Part shown: piece by piece, positions 1 to 19,156 of the stretch
Layout: every line of letters begins with the position of its first letter
Numbering within the stretch: the stretch's first letter is position 1
Virus record (IMG/VR): IMGVR_UViG_3300030104_005306
Span: 7,940-38,027 of that record
Strand: one strand, 5' to 3'
Source: a virus
DNA length: 30,088 nt
Made by a program: the position numbers and the translations under genes
Notes under the pieces: model-generated
Told to the model about the DNA's origin: nothing
The model's input: the letters and a program-made list of their open reading frames with translations, nothing else
Database searches by the model: none

Positions 1-3000
1 ACTGATAATAGGATAAGTGATGTTAAAATTATCAATGCTGGAATTGGATATTCGAGTACATCTTATATTAAAGTTGATTCACCAGGTAAAAATGGAAAAT
101 TAAGTGCTTCTGTTAGACCATTATCACTCAATTTAAACAATAAAATGGGTGATGAGTTGTTATTAGAAGGTGATAATAATTTATCTTATAGTCTTTGTGG
201 GTATGCAAAGACTTATAGAGACTCTTTTGGTGAGGTAGGAAGTGGTACCACAGTTCCTTCTAAAATTATTGGATGGGCATATGATGGAAATCCAGTATAT
301 GGTTCTTTTGGTTATAGTGATTCTGCAGATTCATCAAGTGATGCACGACGATTAGTTAGTGGTTATGAGGCAGATATTGCAAATATTGTAGATAGACCTG
401 TTGGATTTGCTGCTGGTTTCTTCGTAGATGACTATAAATTCACAAATAATGGTGATTTAGATGTTAATAATGGTAGATTTGGAAAAACACCAGAATATCC
501 TGATGGTGTTTATGCATATTTTGCAACTATTGATGGTGATGGTAAGACACAATTCCCATATTTCATCGGAAATTCTTATAGATCACTACCTTTAGAGCAA
601 AATATTGACCAAGATTTTGATTTTAAGGGATCAGATCTAAAAAGAAACACATTTCCTTACAGAGTTGCTGATAAAAATGCTGATAATGACTTTATTATCG
701 AAACAAATGAACTCGAAGATCAAAAAATAGAAATAAAATCAGTTACTGATGGTTCAGTTGACCAATTATCGGTTGTTTCAGCAGGAGAAAATTATAAAAT
801 TAATGATTCTATTGATTTTGACAACAATGGTGGTGGTTCTGGAGTAGTTGCTAAGGTTTCATCATTAAAAGGTAAGGATGTTGTTGGTGTAAGTGTCACA
901 ACATCTTCATATGAAAACGCAATATTCAGTTGGGTGGATAATAAGACAGTAAAAGTTACTGTATTACCAAGTCATAATTGGATAAACAATGATAATATTA
1001 TAATTTCTGGTGTTTCTACTTCATCTGGTATTTCTTCTAGTGTTCCAGCACTAACTCAAATAGATGGAAACTATCAAATTGGAGTTTCTTCTCAATCTGC
1101 ATCAATAATTTCGGAGATAACACCATCTGCAACGGGAATAACAACAGAAATATATGTTAGTTCAATACCAAATTCTCTTTCAATAGGAAGCACTGCTGAA
1201 ATTGGTGGAACAAATACTGAAGAACTAAAAATTCTTAATATCTATAGAGATCTTAAAGCATTAAGAGTTGTAAGATCAACAGGACTTGCTCATAGTATAA
1301 CTTCACCCATAACATATCTTCCAGATTCTTTTACTATCGAGAAAACAACAGATTCTTTCGAATCAGAAGTAAATGATATAGTTTACTTTAACCCAACACA
1401 ATCAGTTGGATTTGGTACAACAGCAGGAGTCACACATAAAACTTCCTTCCGTTTTGGTTCTACAGAAATAATTACAAGAAATATACCGACTCAAAGAATT
1501 TATCTTGAGGATCATCCATTTAAAGTTGATCAGGAATTAACATTTGATACGGGTGGTGAAGCTGCCATTGTAGTAGCTACAGGGATAGCTATCACTACAG
1601 ATACATTCGATCTTCCATCAACTGTTTATGTTTCTGATGTCACTCCAAATACCATTGGTATAAAAACAGGTATTGGTACAACTAGTGGTGATTTTAAAGA
1701 CCTTTACTTTACTGCTGGTGGTGCTGATTATGATGATAAGTATACATTCACAACCAATTATCCACAAATAACTGGAGAACTTCAGAAAATAACAGGAACA
1801 GTTGCAATATCTACGGTTGCCACATCCAATTTAAAATTTGGAGACCAAATTAAGTTGGATATTAAACCAGACCTATCAGTTGGGATTGGTACATCTACTG
1901 CTGTAAGGGTTGTAAGAGACTCTGAAACGGGTTATATGTTGATTGATCCAGTTGAGACATCTTACACAAATATAGACGTTGCTGCTGACACTATTAGAAT
2001 TGATAATCATGGATTTAAAAGAGGTGATAAGGTATTCTATACAATTTCTGATGGTACATTCCCTACTGGATTAACTACTAATAGTTCATACTTTACATAC
2101 GTTGTTGATGATAATTTCATTCAATTATCAGAAACATCTGTAGATTGTTTATCTAACCCACCAAAAGTTGTTGATATTACAGCAGCTGGTGTTGGAACTA
2201 GTAAGTTCTATCAAATTAATCCTCAACTTGAGGTTGTTAAAAATAATAACTTAGTATTTGATTTATCAGATTCCTCTTTATCAAATTATAATTTAAAATT
2301 CTACTATGATAATGAATTTAAGAATAATTTTGTATCTACAGGATCTACTACAAATACATTCAGTATAGTCAGTAGTGGAACTACAACTACACTTAATCAT
2401 GATTCATCTTATCCATCTAAGTTGTACTACTCTCTCGAAAGATCTGGATTTATTAGTACAGCAGACACTGAAGTTTCTAATTATTCTGAAATAACATTTG
2501 TAGATAGTCTCTTTAACAATTCATATAATGTTGTTGGAGTGGGTACTACCTCATTTGATTTTACTTTAAATCAAGTTCCAGAAAAATTATCATATTCTGA
2601 TACTGAGTGTGATTCTATTTCATACACTACTAAGTCTTTAAATGAGACAGGTGGTATTCATGCTGCCTCTATTGTTTCTGGTGGAGTTAATTACAAGAAA
2701 TTGCCCAATTTTGTCGGATCATCTTCTACAGAAGGAACTGGTGGTTATGTTATTGCAAAATCAAAAACTATTGGTAATATTAAGCAAGTAAGAATTATCA
2801 ATGAAGGGTTTGAGTATTCTGCAGATAGTACTCTAGAACCAACTGCATTAATATCTCCACTTATTTCTATTAAAAATTCTAATACTATAGGTGTTGTTAG
2901 TATTACTAGTGGTGGATCTCAATTCATAGATGCTCCAGATATTGTTATTGTAGATTCTACAACAAGAGAAAAAATTGATAGGGGTATTCTTCGTCCATTC

Positions 3001-6000
3001 ATAACAGGATCTGCTATTTCTAGAGTTGATATTATAAGTCCTCCAAATGGTCTTCCCGATGAACCTACTACATTATTCACCATCAATAATGATAATGGGG
3101 TTGGTATTTCATCGATTGTTTCTAATTCAACTGGAATATTTACATGTTATTTAGATACACCTTCATCAGGATTTTCAACTTTCCCATTCTTGGTTAATGA
3201 TGAAGTCTTTATAGAAGGAGTCAGTCGTGTTGGTTCAGCTGGATCTGGATTTAATAGTGCTGATTGTGGATACAAATTTGGTAAAGTTGCTAATTATACT
3301 ACTGGTACAACTGATTCAGTTACAATAGATCTTCAGACAATTGGTGTATCCACTAATACTGGAATAGCAGCAACTGATCAAGGTTCATTTGCAATGATTA
3401 TTAATAAGAATAATTATCCATCATTCACTACAGTTGAAGAATCTAATCAATTTATTATTGGTGAAGAACTGATATTAGATGAGGTTGTAATAGGATTAGT
3501 AATTACTCATTCTGAAGATGATTTTATTAAAGTATTTGGTAGTTATGAGTTAAAGGTTGGTGATATTATCACTGGACAAACTTCAGGATCAATAGCCACT
3601 ATTTCTAGTGTTCAAGAGAACTTAGGAAAATATACTGTTAAATTCTCGGTTAAGAAGAATATTGGATGGTCTGATGATATTGGAAAACTTGATTTAGATA
3701 CTCAGGTAATACCAGATAATGATTATTATCAAAATCTTTCATATACTGTTAAGAGTACAAAAGGATTTGATGAATTAAGAAGTCCAGTAAATGCATTACT
3801 TCATACTAGTGGACTTAAGAATTTTGCTGATGTTGGAATAGGTTCTACAACAAGATCTACTGGTGGAATATCTACAGATGGATCTTGGAGAGTTGGAACA
3901 TCTAGTACTGATTTCTCAATTATAATACAAGATGTTGTAGAAGATAATACAGTTTGGACTATTAATGATTATGATGAGGCATATGATTTTGGAAATAGTG
4001 CAACTCAATCTCGATTCATAAAACTCCAAAATAAGGCTTTATCTGATTATAATATTGCTCTAAGTAATGAGGTTCTTAAGATTGATAATATCAATCAGCA
4101 ATTCTCCAATCTTGAGGGTGATCCAAGTGAATACTTAGATCTTATTGAGTTACAAAGTAATGTTCCTTATCAGAATATTTTCTATAGAGTTACTAATTTA
4201 GATGCTACTGATGTTCAGACTACTGATTTAGTTGTATTAAATAATGGAACAAATAATGTTTTATTAGAAAAATCTAATTTAGAGGATGATTATAGCATAG
4301 GAACATTCAGTATTGCGATAAATTCATTGGGTGCAAATGTTCTTAGATTTACACCAAATCCAAATGCATATGATTATGATTATAATTTAAAAGAAATTAA
4401 GAAAACTTTTGATTCTTCTACAGGTATTGGAACTTTCCCAATAGGATTTGTTAATAAAACTGGATTTGTGGGTGTTGCTACAACAGCCACTTCTGGTGTT
4501 ACCACTACATCAATTATAGCAGTAGATTCTACTAAGTTTGATTCTTTCCATGTTCAGAATCATTTGGTGAATAAAACAACGGATGAAATGAATTATGTGG
4601 AAATATATGTTACTCATGATGGAACAGATACTTATACTTCTGAATATTTCTTAGATACTCATAATCCTATAGACGGATATTCAGGTACGTTAATGGGATC
4701 CTTTAGTGGAGAACTTGATGGATCCGTATTCTCTTTACAATATGAGAATGATTTAACTGATGAGATTGAAATTAGTTCTAATATTGTTGGATTTGGTAAA
4801 ACTTCTGTTGGAATTGGAACATATAGATTCCTTGCAACTGGTCAGGCAGAAACTTCTGAAAGAAGTGCACTTTATCAATCCAATTATGCAGTTGGAGTAG
4901 GAACAACAAGTATTGTTGAATTTGATTCGAATTTGTTTAATGCTGCTAAATCTATAGTTCAGGTTAGTGTCGGATCTACAAGAATTGTATCTGAGGTTAA
5001 ATTTAACCATGATACTACTAATACTTTTGTACAAACTGGCCCATTCTTGTCTAATGCTGGAATAGGAACAGTTAATCCTATTGGAGTCTTTACTGGAGTA
5101 TTAAGTGGTGGTACTTTTGCATTATCATTTACACCAGAAAGTGGATATGCATCAAATAGTATTCAGGTAGATGCTCTTACTTTAGGTGTGTATACTGATA
5201 TTGACACTGATAATATCCCTCTGATTAATGACTTTGAATATGGTAAAGCAAATGAGTCTATTAATGCACACTATTATAATGCTATTAATGGATTAAGAAT
5301 TGATAGAACGAATTTCACATTAAATCATGACAAAACACCAATTTTTGCAAAAACCTTTGATCCTAATTCTAGTGTCGTTAATCTTGCTACAGGACTCTTT
5401 AGTATTGACAAACATTTATTCAGAACAAATGAAGAGTTAATATACACACCTGGAGTATCATTTGTTGGTGTTGGAAGCACTGCAATGCAATATCAAAGTG
5501 GTGCATATCATCATCAACTTCCATCTTCAGTGTTTTCTATTAGAAACGATGCTAACAGTTTCTACATATCAACGACAAGAGCAGGAGCAGCTGTCACATT
5601 TGTCGGAGTTGGTACTGGAAATGTTCATCAATTTGCAATGGCAAAGGCTGACACTAAAGCAGTATTATCAATTAATGATGTAATTCAGTCACCATTAGCA
5701 TTTTCTCCTGTTAGTCATACTTTACAAAATAACCCAGAATCTGTATTGGGTGGTGTTGGTATAGGAACTACTGCGACTATATTCTCTCTTAGTGGAATAT
5801 CATCATTAGCTCCTACTGATATATTAAAAGTTGATGATGAATATATGAAAGTTCTTGATATTGGAATAGGAACGGAAACTAGTGGGCCTATTACAGTTGG
5901 AATAGGATCAACTACTCTAGTTCAGGTTGAGAGAGGTTTTGTTGGATCAGCAGCAACTGCTCATACTAACACAACAACTGCCCAACTTTATAAGGGTACA

Positions 6001-9000
6001 TATAGAATTGTTGGTCAAGATATTTGGTTTACAGAACCTCCAAGAGGAAATCCTCAAGTAATCAAAGATAGTAGTAATTTGGATTGGCCAACTTCCTCCT
6101 TTAATGGAAGGGTTTTCCTAAGAAATGATTATACTAGTAACAAAATATATGATGATGTTTCTAGTGAGTTTAGTGGAATTGCTACAAACTTTGAGTTAAA
6201 GGTTAACGATTCTCCTGTAGTTGGTATGGGAACTACTGGTGGTAATGGTATTGCACTAATTAATGGAATATACCAAAGACCAACAGCAAAAAATAACCCA
6301 CAAAATAACTATCAAATATTAGATTCTAGTGTAGGTTTTGGTACCACTAGTATAATGTTTACTGGTATTTCTACCAATGTTGGGGATCCAATAAGTATTA
6401 ATGAAAATGATATTAATCAAAATCAGTTACCAAGAGGTGGAGTAATAATATCTTTAGGATCCACACCAGGTAGAGGATATGCTCCTTTAGTACCAGCACA
6501 AGTTTATCCACAACTTGATGCTAATGGTACCATTACAAGTCTTGTCAGTGCTGCTGCAACAGGCCCAAGTAATTCTATCACAACTGCATCCTATAATAAT
6601 GAAACTGGATCTTTAGAGATTACTACTGAAAATGCACATAATTTTGAGGTTGGAATTGTAGATCAGGTAAAACTTGCAGGATTAGAATTTACTTGCAGTG
6701 GATCATTCAATGTATATGATGCTGATTATAATCAAACCACAGGTGACTTAGTATTGACAGTTGGTGATCATTATCTAGCAGCAGGTCAATTCATTGGAAT
6801 TAAGACTGATTCCTTGACATTTACTTGTGATGCTGATGCTGATGCCACATATCATTCTTATCCACGTCATGGTACTGATCCAATCGCAGGAATATCTACA
6901 CCTATTAGTGCAACAACTAATAGTACTATTACTGTTAATGTTGGAACTACTAGTGTTCATCAATTTGTAGGTATTGGTACAGAGGCAATTATCATTAGAA
7001 GTGGATATTCAGGAACAACAAGTAATATCTTCCCATATGCCGCCGTAGGATTGGGCAGCACAAGTTTTGATTATACAATCGTAAGTATTGCTGCTACAAA
7101 TAAATTTACAACTGAAGTAGGAATTAACTCAATACCTCATACTTTTGTTGGTGGTGGTAGTGTAATGCCTTGGTATGGAGATGCTAATCTCGGATCTGGT
7201 TATTATGGTGATACGGTTTCTATTGGAGTCACAGATATACCATTTACTCATAAGTTTGTAAGTGCTGCATCAGGTACTATAGTAGGTTATACCACTGCAC
7301 CTTCTTATATTGATTATAATCCAGCAACTGGATATCTGGTGGTATCTTTACCTAATCATGGAAAAACCACTAGTGATACTGTAACATTTGCTAATGATAA
7401 GATTACTCTTACATGTTCTAAAGATAACTATGCAACTGAGCACACCTATCCAAGAGCAAGTGATCGCATCTCAGGAATAGCAACCGCTATAACTGCTTAT
7501 GATACAAATACATTTACCGTATACGTTGGTGAGAATGCTGGTTCAGGTGGTTCGGTTACAGCCACGATAGGTATTGGTGGAACTCTAACCTTTACTATTG
7601 GTGCTGGTGGTACCAATTACCAGAATCCAGTTATCAACATCCCTGAACCATCATACGCTGGTTTAGGAGTTACTGGAATATCTAGATTATCAGTTCCAGG
7701 TGGAACTACCACAGATACTGGAGTTGGATTACTTTTAGATTTACAAGTATCAGCAGCTTCTACTGTTGGTGTAGGATCTACACAGTTTGCAGTGAACAAG
7801 TGGGAAATAGCAAGAAATGGATATGCATTCCAACGTGGTGATGTCTTTGCTCCTGTAGGATTAGTTACAGATGCTAGTCTTTCCAGTCCTATAGAGGAAT
7901 GTCAATTTACTGTATTGGACGTATATAATGATCCGTTTGCAGCATGGCAATTTGGACAATTGGATTATATTGATAGTATTAAACCTTTACAGGATGGAAG
8001 TAAGAGGAGATTTGATTTAAAATATGATGGAGATCTCTTAAGTTTTGAATTGCCAGAAAATCCTGATTTCCCATATATGAATCTTGCTAATGCATTATTC
8101 ATTGTTGTTAATGGAATTATTCAGGAACCAGGAGTTGCTTATGAGTTTGATGGTGGTACATCTTTTGTATTTACAGAAGCTCCTAAAGATGTAGATGATG
8201 TCGCAATATTCTTCTATCAGGGAAGTCCATCTGTTGATACTTCATTAGTAACTAATATTATTCCTTCTCTTAAGGAAGGTGATAGTGTTCAGATGAAGAA
8301 AATCACCGAACAAAATCCACCTACAGAAGTTAATCAAACTTCTAGATTTATTGCTGATTTGAGTAGATCAGATGTAATCGAAACTAATTTATATACTGGA
8401 GATGGTATTAGTGATACTAGACCAAAATCATTAAGTTGGACTAAACAGAAAATTGATAGAGTTATTAATGGTCAAATAATCTATAAATCTAGAGATGCTT
8501 TAGAATCATTAATATTCCCAACTGCAAAGATTATTAGCAACTTCTCAACAACTGATAATGTAGTATATCTTGATAATGCAGATTTATTTGCATATGATGT
8601 CATACCTTCTGCATCTCCTCTTGGTGGATTTATTGTAGATAACACCAATCCCGTTGCTGCTGCATTGACTGCCACAGTATCTCCTGCTGGAACTATTTCA
8701 GCACTCACTATTGTTAGTGGTGGATCTGGTTATGTTGGGGCAACAACTTCAGTTTCTATTACTGCACCACCAGTTGGTGTAGGCACCTTCATTAAACCAG
8801 ATGGTTCAGTTGGTGTAGGATTAACTGCAACAGCAACTGTTCCAGTAACTAATGGAGTTCTTACAGGAACTCCAATAATTACAGGAATTGGATTGGGTTA
8901 TACAACTACAAATCCACCTCAAGTAATTGCTGCTCTTCCTTCATATAAATCTGAATTAATTACTAATATTACTTCTGTTAAGGGATTCTCTGGAATTGTA

Positions 9001-9492
9001 ACTGGTATTGGAACAGCAGGAGGTGTTGGATCAACTCTTGCTATCAAATTCCATGTAACTGGTATTGCTACGGGTGCATGGACTGATTTAAGTGTAGGAT
9101 ATCCTATTTCTGTATTTGATACACAAGTTGGATCTGGAGTAAGTTCTGTTTATGAATCTGGTAATGGTATAGTTGGAGTCGGAACAACCTTCTTAGATAA
9201 TATCTATCGTGTTGCTCAGATATCCTTTACAGGAACTGCCAATTCACCAACTGCTGTTGGACTTATAACATGTAACGTTGAGTATTTCGGTAATCATGCT
9301 GGAATAACATCAACTGGAACTGTGCCAATAGGAGGAATATCATGGGGTAGATTGTCTGGAACTTTAACCAGAAATTCACCAGTCGGGTTTGCAGTTAGTA
9401 ACTATACTGTTAATTCTGGATTGACCACTTTCCCAACATTACAACGAAGAAGTGAGGGAATTAGAGACACTGGTGGAATTGAACCAAATTAA
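1..9492 (+). CDS. Giant repeat-rich virion structural protein (5' partial), in the gp7 slot of the baseplate cluster
   Basis: The reading frame is open from the first base of the window, so the Met codon at 145 is internal and the true start lies upstream; 3163 residues are visible. The N-terminal visible part (about nt 180-600) has a YHYH-like domain signature: 'GWAYDGNPVYG', then 'NNGRFGKTPEYPDGVYAYF' and 'FPYFIG'. The rest is beta-rich, with dozens of short VG(I/V)GTT motifs, Gly-x-x-Tyr repeats (for example nt 784, 2680, 8719, 8890) and three copies of a TC...YPR domain (nt 6586-7530). Near the C-terminus is an 'NGIIQEPGVAY' segment (about nt 8110-8145) of the type common in phage tail proteins. 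No signal peptide or membrane segment is evident. It lies directly before gp8, where T4 encodes wedge protein gp7 (about 1030 residues), so a peripheral baseplate or fibre role is likely. That role is inferred from position and composition; I see no direct gp7 sequence match. Confidence 0.8.
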   Translation, partial: TDNRISDVKIINAGIGYSSTSYIKVDSPGKNGKLSASVRPLSLNLNNKMGDELLLEGDNNLSYSLCGYAKTYRDSFGEVGSGTTVPSKIIGWAYDGNPVYGSFGYSDSADSSSDARRLVSGYEADIANIVDRPVGFAAGFFVDDYKFTNNGDLDVNNGRFGKTPEYPDGVYAYFATIDGDGKTQFPYFIGNSYRSLPLEQNIDQDFDFKGSDLKRNTFPYRVADKNADNDFIIETNELEDQKIEIKSVTDGSVDQLSVVSAGENYKINDSIDFDNNGGGSGVVAKVSSLKGKDVVGVSVTTSSYENAIFSWVDNKTVKVTVLPSHNWINNDNIIISGVSTSSGISSSVPALTQIDGNYQIGVSSQSASIISEITPSATGITTEIYVSSIPNSLSIGSTAEIGGTNTEELKILNIYRDLKALRVVRSTGLAHSITSPITYLPDSFTIEKTTDSFESEVNDIVYFNPTQSVGFGTTAGVTHKTSFRFGSTEIITRNIPTQRIYLEDHPFKVDQELTFDTGGEAAIVVATGIAITTDTFDLPSTVYVSDVTPNTIGIKTGIGTTSGDFKDLYFTAGGADYDDKYTFTTNYPQITGELQKITGTVAISTVATSNLKFGDQIKLDIKPDLSVGIGTSTAVRVVRDSETGYMLIDPVETSYTNIDVAADTIRIDNHGFKRGDKVFYTISDGTFPTGLTTNSSYFTYVVDDNFIQLSETSVDCLSNPPKVVDITAAGVGTSKFYQINPQLEVVKNNNLVFDLSDSSLSNYNLKFYYDNEFKNNFVSTGSTTNTFSIVSSGTTTTLNHDSSYPSKLYYSLERSGFISTADTEVSNYSEITFVDSLFNNSYNVVGVGTTSFDFTLNQVPEKLSYSDTECDSISYTTKSLNETGGIHAASIVSGGVNYKKLPNFVGSSSTEGTGGYVIAKSKTIGNIKQVRIINEGFEYSADSTLEPTALISPLISIKNSNTIGVVSITSGGSQFIDAPDIVIVDSTTREKIDRGILRPFITGSAISRVDIISPPNGLPDEPTTLFTINNDNGVGISSIVSNSTGIFTCYLDTPSSGFSTFPFLVNDEVFIEGVSRVGSAGSGFNSADCGYKFGKVANYTTGTTDSVTIDLQTIGVSTNTGIAATDQGSFAMIINKNNYPSFTTVEESNQFIIGEELILDEVVIGLVITHSEDDFIKVFGSYELKVGDIITGQTSGSIATISSVQENLGKYTVKFSVKKNIGWSDDIGKLDLDTQVIPDNDYYQNLSYTVKSTKGFDELRSPVNALLHTSGLKNFADVGIGSTTRSTGGISTDGSWRVGTSSTDFSIIIQDVVEDNTVWTINDYDEAYDFGNSATQSRFIKLQNKALSDYNIALSNEVLKIDNINQQFSNLEGDPSEYLDLIELQSNVPYQNIFYRVTNLDATDVQTTDLVVLNNGTNNVLLEKSNLEDDYSIGTFSIAINSLGANVLRFTPNPNAYDYDYNLKEIKKTFDSSTGIGTFPIGFVNKTGFVGVATTATSGVTTTSIIAVDSTKFDSFHVQNHLVNKTTDEMNYVEIYVTHDGTDTYTSEYFLDTHNPIDGYSGTLMGSFSGELDGSVFSLQYENDLTDEIEISSNIVGFGKTSVGIGTYRFLATGQAETSERSALYQSNYAVGVGTTSIVEFDSNLFNAAKSIVQVSVGSTRIVSEVKFNHDTTNTFVQTGPFLSNAGIGTVNPIGVFTGVLSGGTFALSFTPESGYASNSIQVDALTLGVYTDIDTDNIPLINDFEYGKANESINAHYYNAINGLRIDRTNFTLNHDKTPIFAKTFDPNSSVVNLATGLFSIDKHLFRTNEELIYTPGVSFVGVGSTAMQYQSGAYHHQLPSSVFSIRNDANSFYISTTRAGAAVTFVGVGTGNVHQFAMAKADTKAVLSINDVIQSPLAFSPVSHTLQNNPESVLGGVGIGTTATIFSLSGISSLAPTDILKVDDEYMKVLDIGIGTETSGPITVGIGSTTLVQVERGFVGSAATAHTNTTTAQLYKGTYRIVGQDIWFTEPPRGNPQVIKDSSNLDWPTSSFNGRVFLRNDYTSNKIYDDVSSEFSGIATNFELKVNDSPVVGMGTTGGNGIALINGIYQRPTAKNNPQNNYQILDSSVGFGTTSIMFTGISTNVGDPISINENDINQNQLPRGGVIISLGSTPGRGYAPLVPAQVYPQLDANGTITSLVSAAATGPSNSITTASYNNETGSLEITTENAHNFEVGIVDQVKLAGLEFTCSGSFNVYDADYNQTTGDLVLTVGDHYLAAGQFIGIKTDSLTFTCDADADATYHSYPRHGTDPIAGISTPISATTNSTITVNVGTTSVHQFVGIGTEAIIIRSGYSGTTSNIFPYAAVGLGSTSFDYTIVSIAATNKFTTEVGINSIPHTFVGGGSVMPWYGDANLGSGYYGDTVSIGVTDIPFTHKFVSAASGTIVGYTTAPSYIDYNPATGYLVVSLPNHGKTTSDTVTFANDKITLTCSKDNYATEHTYPRASDRISGIATAITAYDTNTFTVYVGENAGSGGSVTATIGIGGTLTFTIGAGGTNYQNPVINIPEPSYAGLGVTGISRLSVPGGTTTDTGVGLLLDLQVSAASTVGVGSTQFAVNKWEIARNGYAFQRGDVFAPVGLVTDASLSSPIEECQFTVLDVYNDPFAAWQFGQLDYIDSIKPLQDGSKRRFDLKYDGDLLSFELPENPDFPYMNLANALFIVVNGIIQEPGVAYEFDGGTSFVFTEAPKDVDDVAIFFYQGSPSVDTSLVTNIIPSLKEGDSVQMKKITEQNPPTEVNQTSRFIADLSRSDVIETNLYTGDGISDTRPKSLSWTKQKIDRVINGQIIYKSRDALESLIFPTAKIISNFSTTDNVVYLDNADLFAYDVIPSASPLGGFIVDNTNPVAAALTATVSPAGTISALTIVSGGSGYVGATTSVSITAPPVGVGTFIKPDGSVGVGLTATATVPVTNGVLTGTPIITGIGLGYTTTNPPQVIAALPSYKSELITNITSVKGFSGIVTGIGTAGGVGSTLAIKFHVTGIATGAWTDLSVGYPISVFDTQVGSGVSSVYESGNGIVGVGTTFLDNIYRVAQISFTGTANSPTAVGLITCNVEYFGNHAGITSTGTVPIGGISWGRLSGTLTRNSPVGFAVSNYTVNSGLTTFPTLQRRSEGIRDTGGIEPN
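180..600 (+). other. YHYH-like domain within the giant protein
   Basis: The translated segment contains an Asp-Gly-Asn-Pro-Val-Tyr-Gly core (nt 280-303), followed by Asn-Asn-Gly-Arg-Phe, Thr-Pro-Glu-Tyr-Pro-Asp-Gly-x-Tyr-Ala-Tyr-Phe and Phe-Pro-Tyr-Phe-Ile-Gly. From memory, this order resembles the YHYH family, found in secreted bacterial proteins and in large structural proteins of marine T4-like phages. The eponymous Tyr-His-Tyr-His stretch is not visible and may lie upstream of the window or be degenerate. The function of the domain is unknown to me. Confidence 0.5.
6586..6702 (+). repeat. Copy A of the TG-L...FTC repeat domain in the giant protein (truncated copy)
   Basis: The copy reads Tyr-Asn-Asn-Glu-Thr-Gly-Ser-Leu-x-Ile-Thr ... 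His-Asn-Phe ... Leu-Glu-Phe-Thr-Cys. It matches the first half of copies B and C but stops after the Cys, lacking the His-x-Tyr-Pro-Arg second half. It abuts copy B. It is a protein-level repeat; the DNA has diverged. Confidence 0.7.
6721..6948 (+). repeat. Copy B of the TG-L...FTC...YPR repeat domain
   Basis: A full-length copy: Tyr-Asn-Gln-Thr-Thr-Gly-Asp-Leu-Val-Leu-Thr ... Leu-Thr-Phe-Thr-Cys ... His-Ser-Tyr-Pro-Arg ... Asp-Pro-Ile-Ala-Gly-Ile-Ser-Thr-Pro-Ile ... Thr-Val-Asn-Val-Gly. It aligns by eye with copy C across its whole length. Similar units occur many times in large structural proteins of marine T4-like phages, as far as I recall. Confidence 0.75.
7303..7530 (+). repeat. Copy C of the TG-L...LTC...YPR repeat domain
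   Basis: A full-length copy: Tyr-Asn-Pro-Ala-Thr-Gly-Tyr-Leu-Val-Val-Ser ... His-Gly ... Ile-Thr-Leu-Thr-Cys ... His-Thr-Tyr-Pro-Arg ... Asp-Arg-Ile-Ser-Gly-Ile-Ala-Thr-Ala-Ile ... Thr-Val-Tyr-Val-Gly. It is separated from copy B by about 350 bases of VGxGTT-rich sequence. Copies B and C are both 76 codons long as delimited here. Confidence 0.75.
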
Positions 9493-9507
9493 TTCTTTAT
9501 AAACTCT

Positions 9508-9515
9508 TATAAATA
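9508..9515 (+). promoter_or_regulatory. T4-type late promoter (TATAAATA) for gp8
   Basis: An exact TATAAATA octamer lies in the 40-base gap before gp8, ending 17 bases upstream of its ATG. This is the T4 late-promoter -10 consensus, recognised by the phage sigma factor gp55 with the gp45 clamp; cyanophages use NATAAATA. A near-copy (TTATAAAC, about 9498-9505) sits just upstream, giving an imperfect tandem. The predicted leader would be only about a dozen bases, and no clear Shine-Dalgarno sequence is present. Confidence 0.75.
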
Positions 9516-9532
9516 TCTAAAAAACTATTAAT

Positions 9533-11131
9533 ATGTCTGCTGTCGTAACAGATCAATTCCGAATATTTAATGCAGGTAATTTTGTAGATTCCGTACTAGA
9601 TACTAATAATTCTTATTATGTATTTCTAGGACTCAGTAATCCTACATCACCCAGTCCTGGATTTGGTAGATCAGAAACTTGGAATGATGCATCTGGCCCT
9701 CCTAATCCAACTGATAATTTTCAGTACGAATCTCAATATGGGGAGACTTCTCTTTTTGGGAAAAGAATTGTTAGTAACAATATAAGAAGAGTTGTAAGAA
9801 AAGTTGAATGGACTGAAAATACTTATTATGATATGTATAGGCATGACTATAGTGTCAATAATAAAGCACCTAATTCTCAGACTGGAAGATTATATGATGC
9901 AAATTATTTTGTAGTTAATAGTGATTATAATGTTTATATTTGTATAGAAAATGGTAGTTCGGGAGCTCCTGATTCTATAACTGCTAAAGGTAATAAATCT
10001 AAAGATGAACCAACCTTTACGGATTTGGAACCCTCTGCTGCTGGAACTAGTAATGATGGTTATATTTGGAAATTCTTATTTTCCATATCACCCAGTGATA
10101 TTGTAAAATTTGATTCTACCGAATATATTGTTGTTCCTAATGATTGGGCAACCTCAACAGATTCTCAAATTCAGAATGTCAGAGAAGCAGCTGATTCCGA
10201 TATAAACCAAAATCAAATTAAAACGGTTTATATTGAGAATGGTGGTTCTGGTTATACTACTAGTGATACTATAACATTAGATATATTGGGTGATGGTACT
10301 GGAGGAAAGGTTTCTGTTACTACTTCAGGTGGGGTTATTACTTCTACCGTAGTTACTGCGGGTGGAAGTGGTTATACTTATGGTATTGTTGATTTAAGAC
10401 TTCTTCAACCAGCTGGCACGTTATCTACTCCTGCAAAATTAATACCTATTATACCTCCTTCTAGAGGTCATGGATATGACATCTATAAAGAATTGGGTGC
10501 TGATAGAGTTTTAGTTTATGCAAGATTTGATGATTCGACTAAGGACTTTCCAACTGACACGAAATTTTCTGAGGTTGGAATTGTAAAAAATCCAACAACA
10601 TATACCAATAATAATACTATATTTACTGGTAGTCAGTACTCATCTTTAGGTGCAATTAAAATTGACCCTTCTGGATTTGATAGTTCATCTCTTGTTATAG
10701 GAAGTAAAATAGAACAAATACGTACCGATACTACTGGTGTTGCTAAAGCGTATGTTGCTTCTTATGACAAACAGACTGGTGTTTTAAAGTATTATCAAGA
10801 TAGATCCCTATATTTTGGAAATAATGTAGATCAGACTGATTATATTGGTGTTAGTACAGATGCTAAAGTATTAGGATTTCAGTCTACCAATGCATCTAGT
10901 ATTGTGTTTGCAGCTGGCGGCCCTTCTGATGTTAATGTTTCTGTAGCATTTACTGGAAGAACAGTAACTGATGGTGATAAACAAATAGATCTTGGGGTAT
11001 ATTTTACAGGCGGTCTTGCTGATCCTGAGATAAATAAAACAACTGGCGATGTCATCTATATTGACAATCGAAAAGAAGTCACTAGAGACAGTAGGCAAAA
11101 AGAAGACATCAAAATCATCCTGGAATTTTAA
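9533..11131 (+). CDS. gp8: Baseplate wedge subunit gp8
   Basis: This is the T4 gp8 homologue, a component of the baseplate wedge that assembles with gp7 and gp10 in the host cytoplasm. By eye it shares with T4 gp8 the N-terminal 'VVTDQFR' segment, 'FGRSETWND' (T4 FGRSEPW), 'NDGYIWKFLF' and 'EYIVVPNDW' (T4 GDGYVWEYLF, EYIVVPW), and the C-terminal 'IYIDNRKEV...EDIKIILEF' (T4 IYMENRPPI...EEINILFTF). At 532 residues it is much longer than T4 gp8 (334). Much of the excess is an internal Gly/Thr-rich segment at about residues 234-290 with two GGSGYT repeats, resembling modules in neighbouring proteins. It is preceded by a perfect late promoter but lacks an obvious Shine-Dalgarno sequence. It is separated by 6 bases from the next gene. 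Confidence 0.88.
   Translation: MSAVVTDQFRIFNAGNFVDSVLDTNNSYYVFLGLSNPTSPSPGFGRSETWNDASGPPNPTDNFQYESQYGETSLFGKRIVSNNIRRVVRKVEWTENTYYDMYRHDYSVNNKAPNSQTGRLYDANYFVVNSDYNVYICIENGSSGAPDSITAKGNKSKDEPTFTDLEPSAAGTSNDGYIWKFLFSISPSDIVKFDSTEYIVVPNDWATSTDSQIQNVREAADSDINQNQIKTVYIENGGSGYTTSDTITLDILGDGTGGKVSVTTSGGVITSTVVTAGGSGYTYGIVDLRLLQPAGTLSTPAKLIPIIPPSRGHGYDIYKELGADRVLVYARFDDSTKDFPTDTKFSEVGIVKNPTTYTNNNTIFTGSQYSSLGAIKIDPSGFDSSSLVIGSKIEQIRTDTTGVAKAYVASYDKQTGVLKYYQDRSLYFGNNVDQTDYIGVSTDAKVLGFQSTNASSIVFAAGGPSDVNVSVAFTGRTVTDGDKQIDLGVYFTGGLADPEINKTTGDVIYIDNRKEVTRDSRQKEDIKIILEF
10232..10400 (+). repeat. GGSGYT beta-module insertion in gp8
   Basis: Two Gly-Gly-Ser-Gly-Tyr-Thr units (about residues 237 and 280) flank a Thr/Gly/Val-rich spacer with 'GDGTGGKVSVTTSGG'. 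The unit form is GxGYxxxDxIxxxxxGxGxxAxVxxxxGxI. T4 gp8 is roughly 200 residues shorter, and this block accounts for part of the difference. Confidence 0.65.
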
Positions 11132-11137
11132 AGTAAC

Positions 11138-14100
11138 ATGGCACAGAAAAAAGATTTAAATATCAGTCCCTATTATGATGATTTCGACCCAAGTAATAAT
11201 TTTTACAAGGTCTTATTCAAACCAGGATTTCCAGTACAAGCTAGAGAATTAACATCTCTACAGTCCATTCTTCAAAATCAGGTAGAAGAATTTGGATCTC
11301 ATATGTTTAAAGAGGGATCTGAGGTCATACCTGGTGGGGTAACTATTGATGTTGCATATGATGCCGTAAAATTAAATGCCACTCAATTTGGCATTGATAT
11401 AACTCTTTATACTAGTGAATTAATTGGTAAAGTTGTAGAGGGAGAAATTACTGGTGTATCAGCAACTGTAGAATTTGTTGCATTACCTGATGGTGGTGAT
11501 GTAGAAGATATAACAATATATGTAAAATATGAGAGTGCTGGTATATATGATCCGACTAAAATTAAATTTGTGGATGGTGAAGGATTATTAGTAAAAGAAA
11601 GTTTGGTATATGGAAATACTACTATTAATGCAGGAACGTCCGTTGCAACCTTAATAGCTAGTGCTGCAACATCTATTGGTTCTGCTGCATCTATTGCAAA
11701 GGGTGTTTATTTTGTTAGAGGAACCTTTGTAAATGTAGATAAACAAACCATAATTCTCGATCATTATAATAATACTCCTTCTTATAGAATTGGATTAAAA
11801 GTTGATGAAATAATAATAGGTGCTAAGGATGATCCTTCTTTATATGATAATGCAAAAGGATTTACAAATTATGCTGCACCAGGTGCTGATAGACTTAAAA
11901 TTTCTTTAACTCTATCTAAAAAAATACTTACAGATAAAAATGATACTGATTTTATCGAAATTGCAAGAACTGATGGTGGACAAATTAAGAAGATTAATAA
12001 TAAAACTCAGTATAATATAATTAGAGATTACCTTGCAGAAAGAACATATGAAGAATCTGGAAATTATGCTTTACAACCTTTTACTGTTAATGTTTCCAAT
12101 TCATTAAATGATAGATTAGGTAATGGTGGACTATATTATGACAATCAAAGAACTGAAAGTGGTAATATTCCATCAGATGATTTGATGTGTGTTAAAATTT
12201 CTGAAGGTGAAGCTTATGTAAAAGGATATGATATAACAACAGATAGTACTTCTATTCTGGATGTAGCTAAACCAAGAGATACAAAAACAACCACAGGAAG
12301 TGTTCCTTTCAATATGGGGAATAACTTAGTTGTTAATAATCTTGAAGGTCAACCACAATATAGAGAAGTTATTGATTTATATGGAGAATTACAACAAGGT
12401 ACTAGTATTGTAGGAATTATAGGAAAGGCAAGAGTATATTCTGCCACTCCTAGAACATATCAATCTAATGGACAAGGAAGTACTTGGGATTTGCGTCTTT
12501 ATGATGTTCAGATGTTTGATAGAATTGCATTAAATGATAGTTTAACATCCTCTGGAATTACTACTGGTTATCATATAAAAGGTAGAAATAGTGGAGCTGA
12601 AGGATATTCCGTTTCTCATGGAACCAATATTGCTCTTGCTTCTGGGGTAGGTATAAGTACAAACTGGATAAATGTCGATGGTACTAACGGAACATATCTT
12701 AAGAATGAACCAATCATCATTAATGGTGAAGAAAAACAAGGAAACTTAATTAAAGAGGTTATTAAGTTTAGTCCTAGAGATGTTAAATCTATTCAGCAGA
12801 CTGCAGTAAGTCCATATACTCAATCTTTTAAAGCAGATGCTCTTTTACAACAGATTCCTCTTCCTAATGGAATTACTCAAGGTGATATAAGTGGTGGTAA
12901 TAAACTTGAAAGTCCTGGAAAAATATTTACTAATATTAAAGCAGGTGATATACTCACGTATCAAGGTGCAAGTCAAAGTGATGTTAATTATAATGTAATA
13001 ACTGGTGTTGGTGATGGTGGTAGAAACTTACCTCTTGCTGCGGTTTCTTCTATTGCTGGAGTATATAGAGGAAGTGTTGATAATACTACTAGATCATCGA
13101 TATTCCAAGCTGTCTCATCTTTAGATTCTAGGGATGTTGGTTTATATGGAGTACTTCCAGAAAGAAATATTTCTTCTGTAGATTTTTCTAGTTCTAATTT
13201 AACTGTTTCTGCACAATTAACAGGACAATCTTTATCTGGAATGGGTGGTACTGCTTCTATAAGTGCAGTTAAAGATGGTGGTGGTGTAGCTATATCAACT
13301 GCATTTTTCGAACCTTATAGTATTAGTCAATATTCAGTTCATTTTGGTAGTACTGCTGGTTTTGCCACAGTCACTGCTGATAAATTTGAGTTATTGAGTG
13401 GAGGTGCTTCTTTAAGTCTTGCTGGATTAGGAACTGTAGGTAATGCTGATGCTAATACTGTAATTAGTGTAACTGCAGAGAAGCAAGGAATTCAGAGTAA
13501 AGTAAAGGAATATCAAAGAAGTCAGTTAGTTACCGTAGATAAATCAAACTTTGTAGGGTCTGGTAGTTCTGTTGCCAATCTTAATGATGGGTTGACATAT
13601 AATAGCACTGCTTATGGTTTAAGAGTTCAGGATGAATCTATATCCTTAAATGTTGCTGATGTTTCGAGAGTATTGGTAGTCTATGAATCTCTTGATACAA
13701 ATGCACCTACTTTGGATCATGTAGAATTTCCTTCATCTGCAAATGTTTTAGCTAATGCAAAAATTGGAGAAAATATTATCGGAAAGGATTCTGGTACTAT
13801 TGCAAGAGTAGTTACAAATAATAGTTCGACACCATCAGCTGGTGGAACTAATAGACTGGGGATAGTCTATCTTAATGAGAGAGTATTTAATGTAAATGAA
13901 GAGGTTACATTTTTAGAATCAAATATTCAGACTAGCATTGAGAGTATTAATTCACAAGTTACTGATGGTCAATATAGTGATATTACAAATTCTTTTTATC
14001 TTGATAAAGGACAAAGAGATCAATATTATGATTATTCAAGAATTATTAGAAGAAAAAATACTTCCATACCATCAAAACAATTATTAATTATAATAGACTA

Positions 14101-17100
14101 TTATGATGTTCCTGTTGATGATACAGGAGATGTATTCTCTATATTGAGTTATGGTGGGGATAGATATACGAATGATATTCCATTGATTGGTAATAGTGGA
14201 ATAAGAGCAACTGATACTTTGGACTTTAGACCAAGAGTATCTCCATTTACTGCTACTGATTCATCACCATTCTCATTCCAGAGTAGAACCACTGGATTTG
14301 CAAATACTCCTAAATTCATAGTTACAACAAATGAAAATACTTTAGTGGGATATGATTATTATCTTGGAAGAATTGATAAAGTATATTTGGATGTGGGAGG
14401 TCAATTACAATTAGTAAAGGGACAATCTGCTAAAAATCCATATCCACCAAGTAGTTCTAATGATTCTATGTTAGTGGCTGATATTATATTGCCACCATAC
14501 CTTTATAATCCAAGACATGCACAAATAACTCTTGCAGATAATAGAAGATATACAATGCGTGATATTGGAGAGTTGGAAAATAGAATTGAATCTTTAGAAA
14601 ATGTAACTACCTTATCTTTATTGGAAGTTAGTACTGAAGCAATGAATATAGAAGATGCTTATGGTAGAAATAGATTTAAGAGTGGATTTTTTGTAGATAG
14701 TTTTATTACTGATACTAATGTCGATTTAGGAAAATCAAGTATAACTGTTGATACGGGCAATAGAGTAATTAGACCATTAGTTACTCGAAATAGTCTTAGT
14801 AATTTACTTTTACCTGCTATAAGTACGGTTGATGAAGAGTTAGATTTTGGAACAGATTATCCTTTATATGATTCAAATGTTCAGAAGACTGGAAATGCTG
14901 TTACTTTACAATATGATGAAGTTTCATGGATAGAGCAGTCCTTTGCTACAGGACAAGAAAATGTCAATCCATTTCATGTAGCTTCTTTCACATCAGGAAC
15001 TATTACATTAAGTCCAGAATCTGATTCATGGAGTAGAACCATACAACAAGATGTAGGTACTGAAGGAGAAGCAATTCGAGCTCGAATTGCTGATATCAAT
15101 GCAGCAAGTACAACATGGAGTAGACAGTATGGATCTTCCATATCTCATTTAAATTTATCAAATCTTGACACAGATACTTTTAATACTCTTGTAAGTGATA
15201 TACAAAATTCTGGTTTACAATCAACGATTAATACTGATTCTAGTGCTAATGAAGTTAGAAGTTCTGCAGGACTTCGTGTGGATGAATATACTGTTCGTAA
15301 TAGATCAATTACTCTTAGAGATGGTGTCGTATTCAGTGGTGAAGATGGATTAATGAGATCCAGAAATACTTCATTCTATGCCACTGGATTAAGACCTTTT
15401 GAGAGACATTATCAGTTCCTTGATGGAAATGGTAATGTAGATGTTATTCCAAAGTTAATCGAAATTGCAAGTGATGCGGAAAGAATCAATTATGGTTCTT
15501 CTACTGCTTTTCAAGTGGGAGAAGAAGTGAAGGGTTATATTGATACAAATCATAGTGGACCAACAGAAATCTTTAATGCAAGAGTTGCGACATCTAATCA
15601 TAAAGAAGGGCCTTTTGGAAATCCTACTAAAATATACACCGACAATCCATATGTTCCTACTGAAAATATACAAGCAATTTATACCAGTACTTCAAAAGTA
15701 TTAAATATTGATATCATTGCATTATCTGCAGAAGCACAGGGTTTATATAAGGGATATATCACTAATCAAACAAGATTGGTTGGACAGAATAGTGGAGCAG
15801 TTGCTTACGTTAAAAATATACAATTGAAACCAGATGGTGCTGGAGAAGTCCAAGGTTCTTTCTTCCTTCGTGATCCACATACAACTCCACCACCAAGTGT
15901 CACAATTGAAACTGGAACAAAGACTTATAAACTTACAAGTAGTTCGACTAATGCAAGGCCTGCTACTGGAAGTAATTTAATTTCATCATCAGTTGTTAGG
16001 TATAGGTCTGTTGGTAGTCTTAATGTAGAAGGTTCTATTATTGAGATTGAAGATCAAGATGTTACTGTACGTGATTATTGGGATCCTTTAGCTCAATCTT
16101 TCAGTGTTGGTGCAAATATAGAAGCACCTGATTCTAGTGGATCTTTGGGTGATGATGATAATGGTATATTCTTAACATCTGTAGATTTATTCTTTGCCAA
16201 TAAGAGTACTACTAATAAAGCAGTAACAGTTGAAGTTAGAACTATGGAGTTAGGAACTCCTACAAGAAATAGACTTGGAAGAGGTGTTACATTACTTCCA
16301 AATGAAATTACAACTTCAACTGATGGTTCAGTTGCAACGAATGTTAAATTCCCAGAACCAATTTATCTTGGTCCTGGTCAGGAATATGCGATTGTTCTTC
16401 TTGCTCCAACTAGTACGGAGTTTGAAGTATTTGTTGCCACGATGAATGAACCTACAAAACAATCACAAGATCTTCCTAATGCATCTGCTGTGATTTATTC
16501 TGAGCAATGGGCTCTTGGTAGTTTATTTAAATCACAAAATGGTTCGATTTGGGAACCAAGTCAACTTCAGGATATGAAGTTAAAATTATATAAAGCAAAG
16601 TTTGTAAATAGTGGTACTGCTTTCTTTGCAAATCCTACTTTAAATTCTAGTAATGGTTTTGATGCTCATCTTGGATCAAATCCAATTGTAACATTACCAA
16701 AAACTGGACAAATTAAAATTGATACTCTTACTGTTGGATTCTCGACATTTACTGGGGGAACCATCATTAACGGAGCTACTGATGATGAAGTTACAGCAAC
16801 CATTGTAGATACTGGATGTTCTGCTCAAGGTGTGGGAATTGTTACTGGTGGAACTGGTTATGAAGTTGCATCTGCTGTTGAAACATTTGCAGTTACTGGA
16901 AAGGGTCAAGGATTTAAAGGTAATATTACTGTTGATGCAAATGGAACCATTACAGGTATAGTAACCACTGCTAATGGAACTGGATATCGACAGGGTGATG
17001 TTGTTGGTATTGTGACTGCAGGTGCTTCTGGATCTGGTACAGGTACTGGTGCACTCCTTAGTGTTATTAATAAAACTGATGGAATTGATACCCTATTCTT

Positions 17101-18817: not shown

Positions 18818-19156
18818 ATGGCTGCAGTCTATACGAGTAATTTAGTAATAAACACAGGGAGTACTTTTTCTCAGACTTTTACATTAGAGGGAAATGACGA
18901 TTCAGCGTTTGATTTGACTGGATATACTGTTACATCCCAAATTAGGAAGTGGAGAGGTTCTGCAACTGCCACAGATTTTACCACTGCTATTCCTAATCCT
19001 GCTACACAGGGAAAGATTCTTGTTAGTTTAACTTCTACAGAAACTGCGGCACTGACTCCAGGTAGACATGTCTATGATGTATTGATTACTATTAATGATA
19101 CGAAAGAACTTGTAGTTGAAGGATCTGTTCTTATAAGGGAAGGGGTAACGAGATAA
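18818..19156 (+). CDS. Small beta-sandwich structural protein resembling the BppU N-terminal domain
   Basis: 112 residues with no signal peptide or membrane segment. The layout is: polar beta strand with 'NTGSTFSQTFTL', then 'FDLTGYTVTSQIRK', a spacer, 'GKILVSLTSTETAALTPGRHVYDVLI' and a final 'VVEGSVLIREGVTR'. The pattern (D-Leu-Thr-Gly-Tyr, Leu-Thr..Thr-Ala-x-Leu-x-x-Gly-x-x-x-Tyr-Asp, terminal Val-Thr-Arg) resembles N-terminal baseplate-attachment domains such as BppU_N of lactococcal phages, and free-standing versions in other tailed phages. It probably makes a small adaptor in the baseplate or fibre attachment. It ends in a TAATG overlap with the fibre gene. The homology is from pattern memory only. 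Confidence 0.7.
   Translation: MAAVYTSNLVINTGSTFSQTFTLEGNDDSAFDLTGYTVTSQIRKWRGSATATDFTTAIPNPATQGKILVSLTSTETAALTPGRHVYDVLITINDTKELVVEGSVLIREGVTR
19135..19145 (+). promoter_or_regulatory. Strong Shine-Dalgarno sequence for the 473-residue fibre gene
   Basis: AAGGGAAGGGG lies at the end of the upstream coding region, 10 bases before the ATG at 19156. It is among the purine-richest ribosome-binding sites in the window. It supports the TAATG start, so this junction does not rely only on re-initiation. Confidence 0.7.

Follow-up and report, generated by a model that had tools for sequence, protein, structure and literature searches.

A giant protein in the baseplate wedge slot whose N-terminus is related in sequence to the core of T4 gp7

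The window analyzed here, a stretch of 30,088 nucleotides (positions 7940 to 38027 of a virus record that is 38,027 bases long), opens inside a gene for a 4,376-residue protein that we read from its sequence as an enlarged gp7 and not as a replacement of gp7. Profile comparisons show that its residues ~1-320, encoded upstream of the window, are homologous to T4 gp7 ~638-822, and a second gp7 segment probably lies some 2,100 residues further on. Taken as a whole, the likely explanation is a giant gp7 in which a split scaffold is anchored in the wedge and inserted and appended beta arrays face outward.

Extent and setting of the gene

One frame on the + strand of the window is free of stop codons from base 1 to the stop at base 9492, a run of 3,163 codons, as the first-pass annotation had stated, and the frame continues upstream. 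The complete gene spans 4301-17431 of the source record (L002) and has 4,376 codons; its 5' end, which that annotation had proposed to recover from the flanking sequence, lies 3,639 bases before the window. The first residue encoded in the window corresponds to aa 1214 of the giant gp7, the window share being the C-terminal 72%, and the computed mass and pI of the whole protein are ~469 kDa and 4.5, with four unknown residues taken as alanine. At ~34% GC, stops are expected by arithmetic at ~7% of random codons, which excludes a chance origin of a 3,163-codon frame; among ORFs of at least 80 aa, a single one of 93 aa overlaps it in another frame.

The genes for gp25 (PF04965, E 1.6e-13), gp6 (PF21379, E 2.2e-19), the giant gp7, and gp8 follow one another in one run. 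The gp6 gene ends at position 4299 of the source record, leaving 1 base before the giant gene, and gp8 begins 40 bases past the giant's stop. The giant gene lies next to both gp6 and gp8, where a gp7 wedge gene is expected, in agreement with the earlier placement of a protein of more than 3160 residues in the gp7 slot before gp8. A separate gp7 gene between gp6 and the giant was also considered and is rejected, as the single base there leaves no room for a hidden one.

Window 1..9492, + strand: giant gp7, C-terminal 3,163 residues (aa 1214-4376); phrog_2885, "baseplate wedge subunit"
Window 9533..11131, + strand: baseplate wedge gp8, the next gene; PF09215 E 5.8e-13, phrog_438 E 1.2e-149

The match to phrog_2885 covers nearly the full protein (aa 3-4363 on profile positions 3-4178 of 4179, E 0, 3296.7 bits). 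Downstream of gp8, window 11138-18589 holds a 2,483-aa gene (DUF4815, PF16075, E 7.4e-61; phrog_358), and the gene after gp8 is named VrlC in the annotations of P-HM1, S-SM2, and HTVC008M. Window 18818-20577 encodes two proteins, one of 112 aa that matches phrog_3304 ("L-shaped tail fiber protein assembly") and one of 473 aa with matches to PHROGs for baseplate wedge and tail fiber.

Ten N at positions 7930-7939 of the source record lie inside the giant gene, directly before window base 1. The reading frame is identical on both sides of this gap, and all nine relatives compared have four residues at the same place, as the frame requires. We examined 80 IMG/VR loci carrying the giant N-terminus, the best 80 of 589 relatives; 79 of them are open to the end of the available sequence (up to 3,778 aa), and in one the frame stops at 3,550 aa. 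Six named phages carry unsplit giant genes: S-CAM9 (3,884 aa), S-SM2 (4,156), ACG-2014f (4,225), P-HM1 (4,446), P-SSM2 (5,195), and syn9 (6,076). The ACG-2014f protein aligns end to end with the giant gp7 (1-4220 with 1-4373) at 33% identity, and that of syn9 (L097:18138-36368) has ~500 additional residues (aa 111 to 613) that separate its first helix from the gp7 core. In S-SKS1 (L086:4192-16560), the giant sequence appears as seven matches in three frames, without N, and the breaks are probably sequencing errors; that record annotates pieces of the giant sequence only.

Relation of the N-terminus to gp7

gp7 belongs to the baseplate wedge of contractile tails, where each of the six wedges has it bound to two gp6 copies; T4 gp7 is 1,032 aa long. 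When the giant N-termini (alignment A1, 69 of 303 loci) were compared by hhalign with eight T4-type gp7 proteins, the match had a probability of 96.6% and an E of 5.4e-10, which supplies the gp7-like N-terminal match that the first-pass annotation had sought. Against T4 gp7 alone the probability was 90.0%, and nine other single T4 proteins run as controls reached at most 0.8% (the gp5 control, a 30-residue fragment, is left out of this count). A 29-sequence run (89.2%) aligned giant residues 190-315 to T4 gp7 724-822. Eleven further windows of the giant, reaching ~aa 3640, gave at most 0.5% against gp7, and hhalign in global mode gave no match between giant and gp7. In a PDB profile search of 177,635 sequences, the top match was "Baseplate wedge protein gp7" (E 1.7e-4; next match 0.027), and T4 gp7 itself matches phrog_2885 (E 1.3e-4). 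A single-protein PDB search with the giant gave one match at E 0.22, which we read as chance.

Searched against 656 ORFs, a core profile built from 29 cyanophage sequences alone recovered all five T4-type gp7 proteins present (E 5.2e-6 to 4.5e-5) and none of the other ORFs from the T4-type gp7 loci; its single off-target match, which scored better (E 4e-7), falls on a beta module of a syn9 protein. With HMMER, the 69-sequence giant profile matched five of the eight T4-type gp7 proteins (E 8.1e-7 to 6.2e-6), leaving those of T4, RB49, and AS-yj unmatched at E ≤1, and here too the syn9 beta-module protein scored better than T4-type gp7 (E 3.7e-11). The Pfam models for T4-group gp7 (PF21427, PF21456, and PF21428, for V, VI, and the helical domain), all three of which T4 gp7 matches, had no match in the whole giant at E up to 1 or in its first 450 aa at E up to 10. 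PF23786 (Baseplate_wedge) touched aa 188-221 of those 450 at E 0.088, far below its cut-off. The unmatched Pfam domains bar the label "T4-group gp7" for this protein, not the label "gp7 homologue". No counterpart of the N-terminal 640 residues of T4 gp7 or of its domain VI was found in the giant.

The monomer model of the N-terminus was poor (pLDDT 66.5, pTM 0.38), and Foldseek returned nothing for it at E ≤0.001. VIA-align of model residues 1-411 listed 5iv5_BJ (T4 baseplate, 1,004 residues; Z 8.3) and 9f4a_A0 (KP1-variant baseplate, 1,031 residues; Z 8.0), aligned over 634-847 with rmsd of 8.8 and 9.4. Both chains are unnamed in the list; their lengths fit gp7, and the hits are consistent with it at a Z of ~8 and an rmsd near 9, values close to background.

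Slot proteins of other phages bridge the two groups. The T4-type gp7 profile, searched against 776 sequences, matched the 1,007-aa protein of phiM12 (E 3.5e-7, profile 629-819 on phiM12 6-205), and hhalign placed phiM12 4-205 on T4 gp7 638-831 at 85%. From the other side, the giant profile searched against four sequences matched phiM12 (2.4e-21), RHph_I1_18 (2.6e-18), and HTVC008M (1.7e-26) and left DLP_6 unmatched, while the giant N-termini aligned to HTVC008M at 98.7% by hhalign. Taken singly, the bridging proteins other than phiM12 matched T4-type gp7 weakly by hhalign (RHph 10.7%, DLP_6 14.4%, HTVC008M 1.5%). We also built a non-cyanophage core profile, which combined the eight T4-type proteins with those of phiM12, RHph, and DLP_6 and contained no cyanophage or HTVC008M sequence. 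Among 776 sequences, this profile recovered all nine giants, with E between 1.1e-15 and 1.5e-5, and matched nothing unrelated up to an E of 10. The values were 1.1e-15 for S-SSM7, 2.6e-12 for syn9, 1e-10 for P-HM1, 7.1e-9 for the S-SKS1 fragment, 2.3e-8 for P-SSM2, 1.4e-7 for S-SM2, 3.1e-7 for S-CAM9, 2.7e-6 for ACG-2014f, and 1.5e-5 for the window's giant gp7, the weakest of the nine; HTVC008M scored 9.4e-17. With these results we regard the N-terminus as an established homologue of gp7.

Two sets of database labels touch on these proteins. The HTVC008M protein annotated as "head closure Hc2" (L324:33435-36485, 1,016 aa) is a gp7 homologue, and its gene lies between wedge subunits in the gp6 and gp8 places. 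phrog_4406, phrog_701, and phrog_19630 match the gp7 core region and are filed under "head and packaging", which is probably a category error. Both the HTVC008M label and the filing of the gp7-core PHROGs are annotations to mend.

Second segment, beta modules, and YHYH domain

The features recognized within the window part of the giant gp7 are the following, all on the + strand.

Window 22..123, +: GxGY-type repeat module (aa 1221-1254); iterated HMM, domain E < 0.01
Window 256..534, +: degenerate YHYH domain (aa 1299-1391); PF14240 E 6.9e-23
Window 1084..1326, +: small beta-barrel module (aa 1575-1655); AF2 model, VIA-align
Window 1498..1662, +: HGF-type repeat module (aa 1713-1767); iterated HMM, domain E < 0.01
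Window 1993..2148, +: HGF-type repeat module (aa 1878-1929); iterated HMM
Window 2896..3033, +: GxGY-type repeat module (aa 2179-2224); iterated HMM
Window ~3622..3948, +: probable second gp7 segment (aa ~2421-2529), counterpart of T4 gp7 ~854-894; motif and profile
Window 5404..5580, +: HGF-type repeat module (aa 3015-3073); iterated HMM
Window 6559..7491, +: variable-number module, three matches (aa 3400-3710)

The first-pass annotation had seen no recognizable gp7 core in the visible part of the protein; the probable second segment falls within that part, so this reading probably needs correcting. The segment carries the motif YYQ..SY..KS ... H[PT]xG at aa 2454-2485, with H-x-x-G at aa 2481, and T4-type gp7 carries a similar motif with its H at T4 884. 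A profile was made from 43 sequences (nine named records, the giant gp7, and 33 of 80 loci, chosen as those with the short pattern and full flanks). Among 772 ORFs, this cyanophage profile matched HTVC008M at 2.6e-14 and one of the eight T4-type gp7 proteins, that of T4, at 2.4e-3; with HTVC008M included, three of eight were matched (1.7e-4, 2.3e-3, and 3e-3). Comparison with T4 gp7 by hhalign was weak (25% or 38%), the nine controls reaching at most 0.5%. Among the giants and HTVC008M the segment is strong, as it is in phiM12, RHph, and DLP_6 in a four-sequence search. In the non-cyanophage profile, T4-derived positions 249-286 fall on the motif in six of nine giants, and profile positions offset from that range by one or two or more do so in HTVC008M, phiM12, RHph, and DLP_6 (in the last from position 238), each match being weak; they miss it in the window's giant gp7 and in S-SM2, and the S-SKS1 entry, a 710-aa fragment, ends short of the segment. 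With the second segment at ~2421-2529, ~2,100 residues would be inserted between the two segments and ~1,850 appended after them.

The earlier description of the protein as mostly repeated beta modules stands for the beta content and not for the repeats. In the AF2 model of window 10-3351 (mean pLDDT 69.3), 437 of 1,114 residues (39%) are strand and 44 (4%) helix, while repeats recognizable from sequence make up only ~14% of the part encoded in the window and ~18% of the whole giant gp7. The repeats counted are a pair of barrels near the N-terminus, six modules of the HGF type, four of the GxGY type, and three near the C-terminus; a further "RG2" module drifted onto other modules and was left out of the counts. 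The two N-terminal barrels flank the gp7 helices, at aa 69-162 and 316-384 in the model and at aa 73-124 and 319-367 as a sequence repeat. The barrel at aa 1575-1655 superposes on the JBD30 baseplate chain 8rk3_b (VIA-align Z 11.3, rmsd 1.5, 75 residues) and resembles phage tail protein barrels; its likeness to F1/V1-ATPase barrels as well makes it a common small fold. This barrel dominated the VIA list for the window model, such that other parts, the YHYH fold included, were barely probed. A PDB profile search with the window 10-3351 alignment gave two matches (E 0.13 and 0.33) that we read as chance, and Foldseek with the window model gave one (9.1e-4, TM below 0.1) that we read as meaningless; alignment A2 comprises 28 loci in addition to the window. 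How often the C-terminal module is matched differs between phages, with 3 matches here, 14 in P-SSM2, 18 in the second S-SSM7 gene, 7 in P-HM1, and 1 each in syn9 and ACG-2014f.

The YHYH domain matches PF14240 at 82 bits against a cut-off of 25, over profile positions 93-183 of 193 only. The accessible text of a YHYH review (PMC7824862) presents the family as a predicted metal-dependent (Zn) hydrolase on the grounds of conserved His and Asp. In all 29 aligned sequences, the motif reads YAY[F/Y/H]; Ala replaces the first His in all 29, only 4 of the 29 retain the second, and no column of the domain in these 29 has H in more than half. Because the motif histidines are lost, an active hydrolase is rejected for the giant gp7, and we read the domain in the giants as structural or binding, not catalytic. 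It adjoins aa 1351-1500, one of the more conserved regions, in which the most common residue averages a frequency of 0.70 across 27 sequences (0.79 and 0.74 in the first two 150-residue blocks). A pattern scan of 11 proteins found YHYH in 8, which are the eight giants having that region, and not in the second S-SSM7 gene, HTVC008M, or T4 gp7; in P-HM1, syn9, and S-SSM7 the domain was assigned by pattern, not by Pfam.

Proposed architecture, alternatives, and known relatives

In the architecture that we propose, the N-terminal helices would, as in T4, phage XM1, and TssF2-TssG, become part of the (gp6)2-gp7 core bundle and of the trifurcation close to the sheath initiator gp25, so that the first 320 residues of the giant would act as its anchor in the baseplate. 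The inserted and appended arrays would project outward as a built-in baseplate periphery, present in six copies (~2.8 MDa), which may hold or form host-contacting parts and relay the contact signal to the core. The available portions of the XM1 (PMC10457771) and TssF2-TssG (PMC6300606) papers describe gp7-type helices bundled with two gp6-type subunits; for XM1 they describe one gp7-type bundle per wedge, with an internal loop and the C-terminus of the gp7-type protein holding spikes, a precedent for both growth points. By analogy, the extension may form the outer baseplate. The first-pass annotation had offered two options, an external structure of large size or a fusion of gp7 with such a structure. 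It is the second that fits, since the N-terminal gp7 scaffold lies upstream in the same frame; the external position is what we infer. One further suggestion, which we hold only tentatively and think rather doubtful, is that one chain does the work that T4 splits among gp7 and the outer wedge and pin proteins, with array length, through module number, setting baseplate reach or host range.

The alternative that survives best, which we nonetheless consider unlikely, is that the giant is translated whole and works as, or is cut into, gp7 proper (~aa 1-2590) and a C-terminal fiber-like part. S-SSM7 (L088:19986-39080) speaks for it: this phage has two genes (3,007 and 3,001 aa), each named gp7 and separated from the other by a 340-aa gene, the first matching giant gp7 aa 9-2582 and 3053-3168 and carrying both gp7 segments, the second matching aa 3187-4363, the C-terminal extension. 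Yet a single gene is found in six of the seven named records with unbroken frames, S-SSM7 being the seventh (S-SKS1 is left out).

To this may be added the view, to which we give a very low probability, that gp7 was lost and that an unrelated fiber-like giant or VrlC took its place. The accessible part of PMC7029224 calls T4 gp7 absent from pelagi- and cyanomyophages and apparently replaced by VrlC, that of PMC3037559 puts gp7 among the non-cyanophage core genes, and the core gene list as available in PMC2993671 is without 7; moreover, the syn9 giant is annotated as "putative fiber", and the T4-type gp7 profile alone recovers no giant at E ≤10. Against these points stands the core homology found by several routes, and VrlC is a different gene, the one after gp8, for which reason it is rejected as the gp7 substitute. 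Weakest of all, and of almost negligible probability, is the idea that assembly or sequencing fused a gp7 gene with a fiber gene, a possibility that the first-pass annotation had raised and that the ten N before the window and the two S-SSM7 genes might favor, and which we reject given the open frames in 79 of 80 separate contigs, the 3,884 to 6,076 aa genes in the six named phage records, the end-to-end alignment with ACG-2014f, and the consistent gap length.

The domain map argues, at the level of sequence, against an absence of gp7 from cyanophages; it refines the existing gp7 label and is not the origin of it. GenBank labels several giant genes gp7 or "baseplate wedge initiator". The first 450 residues of the giant have matches in 462 of 50,697 phage records, all 462 with names that start with Synechococcus, Prochlorococcus, Cyanophage, or Marine. 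Among marine cyanophages, giant gp7 genes are commonplace, and marine cyanomyoviruses are abundant. The open-access literature searched yielded no domain map of these giants, and the literature searched no marine cyanomyovirus baseplate structure. The map offers a testable assignment of which residues would lie in the wedge core and which would project from it.

In the accessible tables of the S-SZBM1 virion proteome (PMC9146016), S-SZBM1_208 is listed as "Baseplate wedge initiator" (724 kDa, 6,619 aa) and was detected by mass spectrometry with 71 peptides and 13.5% coverage, figures given without peptide positions. In the S-SZBM1 genome, a gene of 6,619-aa length follows a 691-aa wedge subunit in the gp6 place and a 137-aa one, and its product matches the giant core (aa 120-421) and the second-segment region of HTVC008M. 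A giant gp7 homologue is thus found as a virion protein in S-SZBM1, a phage other than that of the window, and given this and the named giants already known, both the size and the place in the virion were on record before.

Compared with known systems, the cyanophage giant gp7 proteins (phrog_2885) are nearest: they occupy the same slot after gp6 and are unsplit at 3,884 to 6,619 aa, as here, and they differ from the window's giant in length and module number; in syn9 and S-SZBM1 the gene after the giant is not annotated as gp8, unlike here. A 1,937-aa wedge protein of S-CREM2 is on record in a published paper, and the available part of PMC5349666 lists DLP6 gp7 with identities of ~4 to 11% to other phages. 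The slot proteins of Rhizobium RHph_I1_18 (528 aa), phiM12, and Pelagibacter HTVC008M resemble the giant in having the core at the N-terminus and the second segment further on, with inserts much shorter than that of the giant gp7. XM1 gp17, as described in the accessible text, has an N-terminal helix-turn-helix in only 242 residues and is likened to the giant without alignment, and TssG, on the same footing, has a helical stem bundled with two gp6-type partners. T4 gp7, like the giant, lies between gp6 and gp8 and has the core at ~638-822 and, as a weaker match, the probable second segment at ~854-894; ~640 residues precede its core, whereas the giant gp7 starts with the core, and its two segments are nearly adjacent, whereas those of the giant gp7 would lie ~2,100 residues apart.
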